The position numbers and the translations under genes are program-made. 42,384 nucleotides of DNA from a virus. Below, one piece after another: positions 3,990 to 14,996 of this stretch. The notes beneath the pieces are model-generated. The model was not told the origin of the DNA, made no database searches, and saw nothing but the letters and a program-made list of their open reading frames with translations. The stretch spans positions 1-42,384 of the IMG/VR virus record IMGVR_UViG_3300046373_000031; one strand, written 5' to 3'. Position 1 is the stretch's first letter. The number at the start of each line of letters is the position of its first letter.

Positions 3990-4016
3990 AAAAAGCCCAG
4001 CATTGCGGCCGGGCTT
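3990..4016 (-). terminator. Intrinsic terminator upstream of the XhlA-like gene
   Basis: On the minus strand, AAGCCCGGC (4016-4008) and GCTGGGCTT (4001-3993) pair over nine positions with one G-U, loop CGCAAT, and are followed by five T residues (3994-3990). It ends transcription from the 4092-4415 gene, 39 bases before the next start. Confidence 0.85.
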
Positions 4017-4091
4017 GGTGTCTTGTAGCTGCTGGCAGCGTGACAGAAGGTTCAACGATACCGAAGGGCCATCTGTACAACAAGTGTAGGG

Positions 4092-4415
4092 CTATTCTTC
4101 TAGATCGTCGGCAACTTCACGATCTTGCGGCTCCTGTTCAGTCGGCGGCTCTGGTTCTGGTTCTGGTTCAATCGGCAGGCCAGGCTCATCAACTGGGGTT
4201 ACAGGTGGCTTCTCTTCTTCAGGGGCCAATACTGGGACAAGTGCATCCTGGGCAAGGCGGTCAGCAACACCAGAAAGGGTCAGGATGCACTTCTGGTATT
4301 CCTGGTAGATCGGGCCGTCTTGCGGGTATACCGATGCGGCGGTCATTGCCCGGGCCACAACCTCAGTACAGCGGATGGCGGCATCCAGTGAATCCTGGTT
4401 CTTGATGATGCTCAT
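4092..4415 (-). CDS. Small acidic protein with Pro-Glu repeat tail, unknown function
   Basis: This encodes 107 residues, ATG at 4415 after GTAGGAGCGCCGC. The first 60 residues look like an alpha-helical domain (DAAIRCTEVVARAMTAA; YQEYQKCILTLSGVADRLA). The rest is a low-complexity acidic tail with PEPEPEPEPP and many Glu and Asp residues. I do not recognise the family. It is flanked by terminators at 3990-4016 and 4621-4648, so with the 42-residue gene upstream it may form a separate small transcript. Confidence 0.75.
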   Translation of the reverse strand: MSIIKNQDSLDAAIRCTEVVARAMTAASVYPQDGPIYQEYQKCILTLSGVADRLAQDALVPVLAPEEEKPPVTPVDEPGLPIEPEPEPEPPTEQEPQDREVADDLEE

Positions 4416-4648: not shown

Positions 4649-4667
4649 CTGTTACTTCCAGGCGTAT

Positions 4668-4952
4668 TTAGCAGGGGGTCATGCCGACGCCATCAGGTGC
4701 AGACTTGGCCGAGGCCATTACGAAGTGGTTGCTGGATGCGCGCAGATTGGAGGCAAGGCTTTCTTCGGTGGACTGGCTACCCGTTCGCCAGATGGCCAGG
4801 GTCAGCTCCAGGCGCTTAACGCCGACGCTCGGCAGTTCGGACAACATCACTACGGTGCGGTAGGCGTAAGCCACGGGCTCGGCGAAGGCCGAAATGGAGA
4901 AGCAAGACAGGCAGGCAGCGAGCGCCAAGCCAAGGTAACGGGTCAGTCGCAT
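4668..4952 (-). CDS. Putative secreted (periplasmic) protein with signal peptide
   Basis: This encodes 94 residues, ATG at 4952 after AGAGGATTCATC. The N-terminus is a classical Sec signal: MRLTR, a hydrophobic core (YLGLALAACLSCFSISAF), and a probable AFA|EP cleavage near residue 24. The mature part is about 70 residues with no recognised domain and ends in MTPC. The gene has its own terminator at each end, so it may be expressed alone. A phage protein exported to the periplasm could act in lysis, exclusion or envelope modification, but none of these is shown by the sequence. Confidence 0.75.
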   Translation of the reverse strand: MRLTRYLGLALAACLSCFSISAFAEPVAYAYRTVVMLSELPSVGVKRLELTLAIWRTGSQSTEESLASNLRASSNHFVMASAKSAPDGVGMTPC

Positions 4953-5253: not shown

Positions 5254-5329
5254 TGGCGTCGAGGCTAGGATTCGAACCCAGAACGCACGGCTTTGGAGGC
5301 CGGCATGTTGCCGATTACACCACCTGGAC
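5254..5329 (-). tRNA. tRNA-Trp (anticodon CCA)
   Basis: Read on the minus strand from 5329, the 76 bases fit a full cloverleaf: acceptor GTCCAGG with CCTCGAC, U8, D-arm GTGT-AATCGGCA-ACAT, anticodon arm CCGGC-CTCCAAA-GCCGT with CCA at positions 34-36, five-base variable loop, T-arm CTGGG-TTCGAAT-CCTAG, discriminator G73 and an encoded CCA. Conserved A14, G18 G19, A21, T54 T55 C56 and A58 are all in place. Two pairs are broken: C4-C69 in the acceptor and C27-U43 in the anticodon stem. G73 and anticodon CCA are tryptophan identity elements. It follows the RusA-like gene and is the only tRNA found. Confidence 0.92.
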
Positions 5330-13154: not shown

Positions 13155-13324
13155 TCACAACCTATTTTCTCATCTCGGCATTCATCATGGGCTGGATGTT
13201 CGGCGTGGACTACATGAACGATATCCGCTGGACGTTCTGGGAGCGCGTCGGTACCGCAGCTCTCGCCATCGCATGGCCATACCTTGCATACCTTTTGTGG
13301 CGCGAGTGGAGGAAAACCAAATGA
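13151..13324 (+). CDS. Small two-pass membrane protein (57 aa)
   Basis: ATG at 13151 overlaps the previous stop. Two hydrophobic segments, ITTYFLISAFIMGWMFGVDY and AALAIAWPYLAYLLW, are separated by a charged turn (NDIRWTFWERV), with a basic end (REWRKTK). It is probably in the inner membrane with both ends on the same side. The function is unknown. Confidence 0.75.
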   Translation: MITTYFLISAFIMGWMFGVDYMNDIRWTFWERVGTAALAIAWPYLAYLLWREWRKTK

Positions 13325-13665
13325 GCGCAAATCACGCCAAACACTTCGACACTCGAAAGGCTTCGGCAGAGGAAACCGCGCGCTGGCTTCTCCCGGAAGT
13401 TCAGCGGGCCGAGGGACGGGGATTCGATGAAGTCTCGATCAAGGTCCGCGACATGAAGGAACTGCTGTCGTACATCGAGGCCGTGTCTTACCGGGCCCGG
13501 GTCGAGTTCTCTGGCAAGCGCCTGGGTTACGCAAACCCCCAGGCCATGCGCGACTTGCTGAGCCGCAAGGTGGACAAGATCGAGGTGTTCGCCATCCAGT
13601 CGAAGCAGGCCTGCACGCTGGCCAGTTACACGGATCTTCCGCCGAAGGGGGTTGGTGATGAGTGA
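13321..13665 (+). CDS. Small phage protein, unknown function (114 aa)
   Basis: ATG at 13321 (MSANHAKHFDTRKASAEETA) overlaps the membrane-protein stop and follows GAGGAAAACCAA. It is charged and mostly helical, with the stretch SYRARVEFSGKRLGYANPQA and then AMRDLLSRKVDKIEVFAIQS. No motif is recognised. It overlaps the next gene by 8 bases. Confidence 0.75.
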   Translation: MSANHAKHFDTRKASAEETARWLLPEVQRAEGRGFDEVSIKVRDMKELLSYIEAVSYRARVEFSGKRLGYANPQAMRDLLSRKVDKIEVFAIQSKQACTLASYTDLPPKGVGDE

Positions 13666-13855
13666 TTTTTACTGCATCAAGACCAGGCGATTCATCAAGT
13701 CGCACTGCTACGCCGGCCACGAATACACGCCTGAGAACACCGGCATAGATTCAAGAGGCAGTCGATTCTGCAAATGCTGCGCACGCACCAACGGACGGAA
13801 CCGTCTACGAAAATTCCGTATCCGCGAAGCTATTGCAAGTGCGGCCGAGCCGTAG
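13658..13855 (+). CDS. Small zinc-finger/HNH-like protein (65 aa)
   Basis: ATG at 13658 is chosen because AGGGGG lies upstream. The core YAGHEYTPENTGIDSRGSRF is followed by CKCCARTNGRNR. The G-H-x-Y-T-x-E-N-T and C-x-C-C pattern resembles the zinc-knuckle part of small phage HNH-type nucleases (H plus CxxC), but the protein is short and lacks an obvious catalytic HNH triad. It could bind DNA or RNA. It is followed directly by the structured non-coding region. Confidence 0.72.
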   Translation: MSDFYCIKTRRFIKSHCYAGHEYTPENTGIDSRGSRFCKCCARTNGRNRLRKFRIREAIASAAEP

Positions 13856-13861
13856 CATTAT
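13833..13861 (+). promoter_or_regulatory. Putative promoter for the structured RNA region
   Basis: TTGCAA (13833-13838) and CATTAT (13856-13861) are separated by 17 bases. Each hexamer matches the sigma70 consensus at 4 of 6 positions. Transcription would start near 13868, just ahead of the first pairing segment. Confidence 0.5.
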
Positions 13862-13867
13862 CACTCC

Positions 13868-14018
13868 CGCTGAAGCCGTGGAACGCAGAAGCAAAGACAG
13901 ACCAGTTGCCGGGGATGAAACCCATGAAGCAAGCGCCGTTCTCCTGATGATCAAGCCTCCCCGGCACTGGTCGATCAGAAAGGAGAGTTCCACCGGCGCT
14001 TGGCTTGATGGGTTTTTT
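13868..14018 (+). ncRNA. Structured RNA candidate with crossing helices and terminator
   Basis: Intergenic, with no credible gene. Four paired sets are visible. E-F: GCCGTGGAAC (13875-13884) with GTTCCAC/GGC (13987-13997), 10 pairs, one bulge. A-C: GACCAG plus TGCCGGGG (13900-13914) with CCCCGGCACTGGTC (13959-13972), 14 pairs, one bulge. B-D: 13918-13938 with 13994-14015, about 20 pairs with one mismatch and one bulge, followed by TTTTTT (14013-14018). Inside B-D, TTCTCCT (13939-13945) can pair with AGGAGAG (13981-13987). A-C and E-F nest, but both cross B-D. The RNA must therefore be pseudoknotted or switch between folds, B-D being an intrinsic terminator. It could be a free small RNA or the leader of the gene at 14055. 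Confidence 0.6.
13994..14018 (+). terminator. Terminator arm of the structured RNA
   Basis: This is the 3' strand of the B-D helix (CGGCGCTTGGCTTGATGGG) followed by six T residues. The 5' strand is at 13918-13938. It would end transcription 37 bases before the start of the 313-residue gene unless the alternative pairing forms. Confidence 0.65.
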
Positions 14019-14054
14019 GTTGCCTTGAATTAACCAACCGAGAAGGAAAATCAC

Positions 14055-14996
14055 ATGTCTCCAGAACAACGCGCCATTATCGCCGCCGCTGCAAAAGACG
14101 GCGTATCACCAATCGAACGTGACGCGCGCCTGATCGTGCACGGCATGGTCAACGCCACCCGCGATCAGATGCGCAAGTACCAGGTCGGGTACGACAAGAT
14201 GGGCGAGCAGCAGCAAGACGCCGTGCTTGCCGATCTGACTGCCGCCTACAACGACCTGGCCATGACCATTGCCCGGGCCCTGGCCAGCGCCGGCACGCCG
14301 TTCGTGATCGCCACCTGCAAGAAGCTGGAAGTGTCCAATGGCAACTTCACCGCGATCATCAAGAGCGACCAGGACCACTACAACGATCTGATCTCCAAGG
14401 TCCAGGACAAGGGTGAAGTTGTGATCGCGCTGTACGAACGCCAGTTCCGTGACGGCATGGACGATATCCAGTCGGACAAGGATCAGCGCTCTCTTCCTTT
14501 GGCTGGTGACGACAAGCCAACCAAGCCAAAGAAAGCCACCGAGCCCAAAGCAATTACGCTGACCGAAAAGCAGATCCACGACGGCCGTCAGTTCCTGGTT
14601 GAGTTCCGCAAGCCTTCGATCTCCGGCATGCAGGCTCAGCTCAAGGTCGGTTTCGACAAGGCCCTGGTAGCGCTTGAGCTTTTCGCCGATGAAGGCCTGA
14701 TCGTTCGCCTGGGCGACGACAAGTACGAGATGGCCGGCACTGCCCCGGCGGCACCAGCTGATCCAGACTTGTACGGCGAACTGACCTACAGCGAAGTTCA
14801 GCAGACTGTCGTGCTGCATGCCACGAACTTCGAACTGGCCTGGCTGGTGTCGCGCTTCAAGATCGACGAAGAGCGCGCAAGCCACTTGTGTCTGCGACTG
14901 CTGGATGATCAGGTGATTGCACCGGCTGCGTCCACGGATCTCGATGCTGAGCCTCAATACAACGTAGTCGCCAAGCTGGAAGATCTGACCATCTAA
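14055..14996 (+). CDS. Protein with two FtsK-gamma-like winged helices
   Basis: This encodes 313 residues, ATG at 14055 behind GAGAAGGAAAATCAC. Residues about 1-150 form an N-terminal domain (YDKMGEQQQDAVLADLTAAY; GTPFVIATCKKLEVSNGNFT) seen in phage and plasmid proteins of unknown role. A Lys/Pro-rich linker (DKPTKPKKATEPK) follows. Then come two copies of an FtsK gamma-like domain: residues about 170-220 with FRKPSISGMQAQLKVGFDKA, and about 245-295 with NFELAWLVSRFKIDEERAS. FtsK gamma binds polar DNA motifs and activates XerD, so a sequence-specific DNA-binding role is likely. There is no ATPase motor here. Confidence 0.8.
   Translation: MSPEQRAIIAAAAKDGVSPIERDARLIVHGMVNATRDQMRKYQVGYDKMGEQQQDAVLADLTAAYNDLAMTIARALASAGTPFVIATCKKLEVSNGNFTAIIKSDQDHYNDLISKVQDKGEVVIALYERQFRDGMDDIQSDKDQRSLPLAGDDKPTKPKKATEPKAITLTEKQIHDGRQFLVEFRKPSISGMQAQLKVGFDKALVALELFADEGLIVRLGDDKYEMAGTAPAAPADPDLYGELTYSEVQQTVVLHATNFELAWLVSRFKIDEERASHLCLRLLDDQVIAPAASTDLDAEPQYNVVAKLEDLTI

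Follow-up and report, generated by a model that had tools for sequence, protein, structure and literature searches.

A predicted family of knotted non-coding RNA genes in Pseudomonas phages, with conserved helices and their own promoter and terminator

The preQ1-I, ZTP and fluoride riboswitches are pseudoknotted and possess a terminator, and pseudoknot-controlled terminators are known from the preQ1, ZTP and fluoride classes. The HEARO or omega RNA, which Rfam includes, is the RNA of IscB. Phages themselves carry structured RNAs, of which GOLLD, wcaG, manA and abiF are represented in Rfam and were recognised by covariation; S-CREM1 has been reported with abiF, wcaG, manA and glnA (PMC12197685). 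Others, such as PAK_P4as15 and 24B_1, are small regulatory RNAs of phages that pair with mRNA (PMC12197685).

Here, we compared among phages a locus on a viral DNA stretch of 42,384 nucleotides (IMG/VR record IMGVR_UViG_3300046373_000031, hereafter the window), for which an earlier note, made from the letters alone, had described three long complementary pairs and proposed an attenuator or switch. Our main finding is that positions 13868 to 14018 would constitute an autonomous gene for a knotted non-coding RNA, most likely acting in trans, by its shape, on a protein; we hold this reading with moderate confidence. Comparison of 15 members shows a family with five helices, predicted promoters and terminators at corresponding positions, no conserved reading frame, and independent assortment of RNA type and neighbouring gene.

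Like GOLLD, wcaG, manA and abiF, this RNA is structured, carried by phages and recognised by covariation, but it matches no sequence or model, is about 150 bases long, and has two predicted pseudoknots and its own putative promoter. As in the preQ1-I, ZTP and fluoride riboswitches, the loop of a 5' hairpin pairs with a strand directly beside the terminator; unlike them, it finds no match in Rfam, any overlap of its pseudoknot with the terminator is not conserved, and the gene that follows it varies among the phages. With PAK_P4as15 and 24B_1 it shares its origin in a phage and possibly the state of a free RNA, whereas its helices exchange their sequences freely and remain paired; an antisense target is therefore unlikely. 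It recalls the HEARO or omega RNA in that three members have the structured RNA beside an HNH gene; it differs in that most members have no HNH gene there, the HNH proteins are of different kinds, Rfam gives no match, and no IscB-type HNH nuclease adjoins the RNA.

At the curated gathering threshold, none of the 4227 families of Rfam 15 matched the RNA of the window or those at eight loci with its relatives, which agrees with the earlier impression that no known riboswitch or ribozyme is present. A permissive search gave only weak matches to unrelated families, far below threshold, and those resembling C/D boxes were rejected as chance (E 1.2 and 5). No description of this RNA was found in the literature searched, a body whose coverage excludes most subscription journals. 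The RNA family is new in the sense of being absent from Rfam 15 and from that literature, structured phage RNAs as a kind being already known. The sole above-threshold Rfam match in the window is a tRNA-Trp gene (anticodon CCA) on the minus strand at 5254-5329.

The RNA, its signals, its five conserved helices (Pa, P0, S1, Pm and S2) and its neighbours are located as follows in the window.

13273 to 13665, plus strand: upstream gene for an orphan protein (family of about 110 to 130 amino acids; BLASTP cluster of 10)
13833 to 13838, plus strand: -35 element TTGCAA, at an offset to the RNA start identical in 13 of the 15 members
13856 to 13861, plus strand: -10 element CATTAT, ending 6 bases 5' of the predicted +1
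13868 to 14018, plus strand: non-coding RNA gene of about 151 bases, from the predicted start to the end of the T run
13868 to 13892, plus strand: Pa, the 5' hairpin CGCTGAAG-N10-CAGAAGC, with an internal purine motif and a loop that is the P0 5' strand
13878 to 13884, plus strand: P0 5' strand GTGGAAC, in the Pa loop
13900 to 13914, plus strand: S1 5' strand, from S1 pairing and compensatory changes
13918 to 13938, plus strand: S2 5' strand, terminator stem, from S2 pairing and compensatory changes
13941 to 13952, plus strand: Pm 5' strand CTCCTGATGATC, from Pm pairing and compensatory changes
13959 to 13972, plus strand: S1 3' strand, in the Pm loop, separated from the Pm 3' strand by a linker of 0 to 3 bases in every member
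13973 to 13985, plus strand: Pm 3' strand GATCAGAAAGGAG, on the same basis as the Pm 5' strand
13987 to 13993, plus strand: P0 3' strand GTTCCAC, immediately next to the S2 3' strand
13994 to 14015, plus strand: S2 3' strand, running into the T at 14013 to 14018
14055 to 14996, plus strand: downstream FtsK-gamma-like gene (Pfam FtsK_gamma, E 1e-4, below the curated cut-off; phrog_6576, E 2e-50)

From 5' to 3', the order is Pa, S1 5', S2 5', Pm 5', S1 3', Pm 3', P0 3', S2 3' and the T run. The three pairs of the earlier note are present at about the positions it gave, and its topology holds, P0 and S1 being nested and S2 crossing both. Absent from it were Pm, a fourth long helix that crosses S1 and nests within S2, and the hairpin Pa, which pairs 13869-13871 with 13890-13892 and 13875 with 13886. 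Its first pair survives in part: the core, 13878-13884 with 13987-13993, is conserved, and the extension into 13995-13997 is not, an extension of P0 into S2 being possible only where the terminator 3' strand starts with CGG (8 of 15 members). In folding, the segment surpasses its shuffled versions: z is -2.8, and none of 200 shuffles is as good.

The 15 distinct sequences come from Pseudomonas phages of podovirus and myovirus type and from contigs of IMG/VR, at least 15 phages in all, and each was checked letter for letter against its source. A similarity search showed that AH02, a phage of Pseudomonas koreensis, matches the window at 13868-14022 with 90.5% identity; the flanks differ, yet the match starts with the RNA's first base. 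AH02 and the members in HU1, Orimi01 and Orisa01-03 were obtained through BLAST and synteny, those on IMG/VR contigs through patterns and a neighbour search. The carriers include AF/HU1-like phage (the window and HU1), a phage with P22-like genes (AH02) and Orionvirus myoviruses, which are predicted to be virulent (PMC11256456). Across these phages most letters of the RNA are changed and its predicted knotted shape is preserved.

A covariance model built from six members, with the nested helices Pa, S2 and Pm only, gave 15 homologues 50 to 114 bits; among those outside model building, Orisa03 scored 50.6 bits (E 2e-10) and the contig member L032 88.7 bits (E 7e-20). Eight loci found by P0 complementarity alone, where P0 pairing is present by construction and S1, S2 and Pm had no part in the search, scored 88 to 93 bits with S1, S2 and Pm intact. 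A structural descriptor applied to both strands of 1.86 million bases returned true members only. Other candidates were discarded: a pattern scan of 84,980 species gave 20 matches, all without the P0 pairing, spacing or terminator; the IMG/VR matches L009-L011 were rejected as members; and a looser pattern of promoter plus Pa gave 40 matches, none of them a member under the structural descriptor. The covariance model found no match in phages AF, PfAn1, phi297 and CF55b, and no copy was found on plasmids. Searches for prophage copies, weak as tests because they scored few candidates per genome and had no positive control, gave none in 298 genomes of the G168 family, 56 of the G168 genus and 56 of the G001 class; G168 was chosen by a Pseudomonas-type 16S probe, and its identity as Pseudomonas is putative.

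Two predicted signals would set the borders of the RNA. In the window, the promoter-like pair TTGCAA/CATTAT, already noticed at 13833-13861, is present with a 17-base spacer and would, as suggested then, allow a free RNA of about 150 bases. The same sigma70-like arrangement (-35 TTGnnn, 17-base spacer, -10 ending 6 bases before Pa) stands at one offset in 13 of the 15 members; the remaining two have TTGACG or TTGACT with TAGACT, a 16-base spacer and a promoter shifted by 1-2 bases. At the fixed offset, the promoter score averages 7.3 of 12 (background 2.8), and this offset is the highest-scoring of all those from -300 to +300; it places +1 at about the first base of Pa. At the other end, S2 and the T run form an intrinsic terminator in 15 of 15 members, and the six T read earlier as the end of the third pair lie at 14013-14018. 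From these two signals, a +1 at about 13868 and a 3' end at about 14018 are predicted, so that the RNA would have its own promoter at the 5' end and its own terminator at the 3' end.

Compensatory changes, whose lack was to count against the structure, are abundant in all five helices. Among the 15 members, the paired cells amount to 57/60 (95%) in Pa, 105/105 in P0, 184/194 in S1, 309/326 in S2 and 137/142 in Pm, and compensatory changes occur at 2, 3, 9, 19 and 9 positions, respectively (in Pm, 9 of 10); in Pa, for instance, GCU/AGC is changed to GUU/GAC and GUC/GAC. When the 3' strands were shuffled among the 15 members, the observed pairing was reached in none of 4000 trials for P0, S1, S2 and Pm, and in 9 of 4000 for Pa. 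In a six-sequence alignment, 95.5% of pair cells are standard, against 33-47% with partners slid by 1-3 columns; none of 500 shuffles matches the observed pairing or the covariation score, the latter being 0.442 versus 0.04-0.07 in controls. The pairing is far beyond chance.

These figures depend in part on how the sequences were aligned. The MAFFT alignments A2 and A3 misplaced S1 and S2 between RNA types, and we therefore aligned by structure with N as padding; because of a two-column shift by MAFFT, Orisa03 was kept out of A5 and of the model and used as a held-out test. Because this alignment is manual and was adjusted to the structure, close pairs of sequences carry most weight, those of the window/AH02 type needing almost no gap choices. 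Between the window and AH02, the few differences lie mostly opposite one another in S2: four pairs are changed on both sides, one is changed to a wobble and none is broken, and the close pairs window/AH02, L085/L084 and AH02/L088 all show double changes and no broken pairs.

In 15 of 15 members, Pa and P0 have the classical proportions of an H-type pseudoknot (2-base loop, 7 bp, 1-base junction), exactly 2 bases crossing the 7-bp P0, and the linker between the 3' strands of P0 and S2 has 0 bases in 14 members and 1 base in Orisa03. In Pm/S1, a linker of 6-8 bases crosses an S1 of 11-14 bp, and S1 abuts Pm with 0-3 bases; at about 6 Å per base this linker would reach about 42-54 Å, compared with the 29-35 Å needed across S1 in A-form geometry. 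On the basis of such simple geometry, we infer that all the helices could coexist in a single knotted fold, and the strand order makes stepwise folding during transcription possible. The conserved helices use disjoint bases, no base being common to two of them. The overlap of the first pair with the terminator is not kept across the family; a switch operated by that overlap, as first proposed, is not borne out.

The RNA belongs to the early operon region and often has recombination genes (ERF, RecT, YqaJ, FtsK-gamma-like) as neighbours. The gene downstream is not conserved, at least seven types occurring among the members, several of them recombination genes: it is FtsK-gamma-like in the window and L007, ERF in L084 and L085, YqaJ/RecE-like in L087, RecT in L089, an unknown protein (phrog_1376) in L008, anti-repressor-like in Orimi01, and HNH in AH02, Orisa03 and HU1. 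One RNA type can stand before different genes (FtsK-gamma-like, ERF, YqaJ, RecT, HNH), and the same FtsK-gamma-like gene follows different RNA types, that of the window and that of HU1. Moreover, the upstream flank and promoter are common to the window and HU1 up to 13875, after which the RNA types differ at the same site; RNA type and neighbour thus assort independently. Just upstream of the RNA, the orphan protein family is present in 10 of the 15 members, its stop codon lying about 14 bases before the RNA start in most of these, and it has no Pfam or PHROG match; this protein is a possible partner of the RNA. Of the HNH proteins, the two in AH02 and Orisa03 are free-standing HNH_3 enzymes, small at about 160 amino acids. 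In HU1, the RNA and the FtsK-gamma-like gene are separated by a region (L075:33376-33979) that looks like an endonuclease of the NUMOD4/HNH type; its ORFs are broken and annotated only as short hypothetical ones, and its type appears different from HNH_3.

A cis-acting leader is the chief rival to an RNA acting in trans: a protein or ligand holding Pa/P0 or Pm/S1 would overcome the terminator, and polymerase would enter the recombination operon. A promoter, about 150 structured bases, a terminator and a start codon within about 40 bases are the usual layout of an attenuator or riboswitch; the RNA, which often adjoins ERF, RecT, YqaJ or FtsK-gamma-like genes, always lies just upstream of an operon with no separate promoter for the next gene identified between them, and the preQ1, ZTP and fluoride riboswitches show that a pseudoknot can control a terminator. 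Against a leader of this kind, only member-specific alternative partners of either terminator strand were found among the 15 members, no conserved antiterminator emerged, and no base serves two conserved helices. The downstream gene also varies, independently of the RNA type; in HU1 and AH02, HNH genes stand between the RNA and its former neighbour, and in Orisa03 an HNH gene comes next after it. The comparison does not support the attenuator or switch that the earlier note placed ahead of the FtsK-gamma-like gene, and we see the cis-acting leader as a credible but minority explanation; the terminator may still influence the downstream operon in cis.

The remaining explanations are far less probable. 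The HNH genes directly downstream in HU1, AH02 and Orisa03 could mean that the RNA is guide or partner of the neighbouring endonuclease, like the omega RNA (HEARO) of IscB, but 12 of the 15 members have no HNH gene there, the AH02 and Orisa03 enzymes are small HNH_3 proteins of about 160 residues, that of HU1 is apparently of another type, and Rfam, HEARO included, is silent; we consider this very unlikely. Less likely still is a merely unusually long intrinsic terminator, the rest being chance or drift: S2 and its T run would indeed make a good terminator alone, yet Pa, P0, S1 and Pm serve no termination and nevertheless covary, at fixed spacing together with the promoter, and the covariation of crossing helices refutes this reading. 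A small protein gene is the most improbable of all. AH02 is annotated with gene 28 (L001:4011-4139), a hypothetical protein whose ORF lies wholly within the RNA, and the copy in the window has one frame free of stops; against this, every frame has at least one stop in 14 of the 15 members, RNA lengths differ by non-multiples of three, and the changes preserve base pairs, not codons. Comparison of frames in the 15 members revealed no conserved reading frame across the RNA, a point on which the first proposal had also been made to depend, and the secondary structure is conserved without one. The broken frames in relatives refute the small-protein reading, and for the same reason gene 28 is probably no gene.

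In the autonomous, trans-acting RNA that we favour, host RNA polymerase would start at about 13868, at the RNA's own sigma70-type promoter in the early operon beside recombination genes. The nascent RNA would fold into two H-type pseudoknots, Pa/P0 and Pm/S1, which the long stem S2 would tie together while simultaneously ending transcription, and the finished knotted RNA would act in trans by its shape and bind a protein of the host or the phage. Accumulation of the RNA and its action in trans on a protein are what we infer; that it acts by shape and not by base-pairing with a target is suggested by the free exchange of helix sequences with pairing kept. Movement of the RNA between unrelated phages, the shape kept and the letters changed, suggests that the shape is recognised by something common to infections. 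Speculatively, and rather improbably, it could represent a new class of RNA machine common to podoviruses and myoviruses, a small RNA with two pseudoknots by which a host protein (a defence nuclease, a recombination enzyme or RNA polymerase, for instance) is put out of action or redirected soon after infection begins. In this view, homing endonucleases would target it and put their own copy in place of a rival's. Few structured RNAs of virulent phages are defined by covariation, and this one offers clear borders, its own predicted signals and a testable three-dimensional plan. Laboratory hosts exist for the carriers AH02, HU1, Orimi01 and Orisa01-03, and finding the RNA's partner could reveal an RNA-made route to host takeover or anti-defence.

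The AH02 locus bears on mobility. On L001, a complete window-type RNA (4001-4154) is followed by the HNH_3 gene and, immediately after it, by the 3' half of an HU1-type RNA (4657-4732), HNH_3 gene and half RNA together occupying L001:4169-4732. The gene after this truncated RNA is the one found directly after the intact HU1-type RNA in L090, which displays the uninterrupted arrangement, and AH02 has one intact RNA although its second copy is truncated. The simplest reading is that an RNA and an endonuclease were inserted together into a rival RNA gene, replacing its 5' half, and the locus suggests an endonuclease carrying a replacement RNA. Nuclease genes have been reported where segments exchanged between phages meet their surroundings (PMC10448857). 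The AH02 locus offers a way to test whether an endonuclease can propagate by cleaving the gene of a phage RNA and providing its replacement. In the window, an ORF of 67 amino acids (13652-13855), also present in HU1, matches part of HNH endonuclease families (phrog_826, E 1e-8) and is possibly an HNH remnant.
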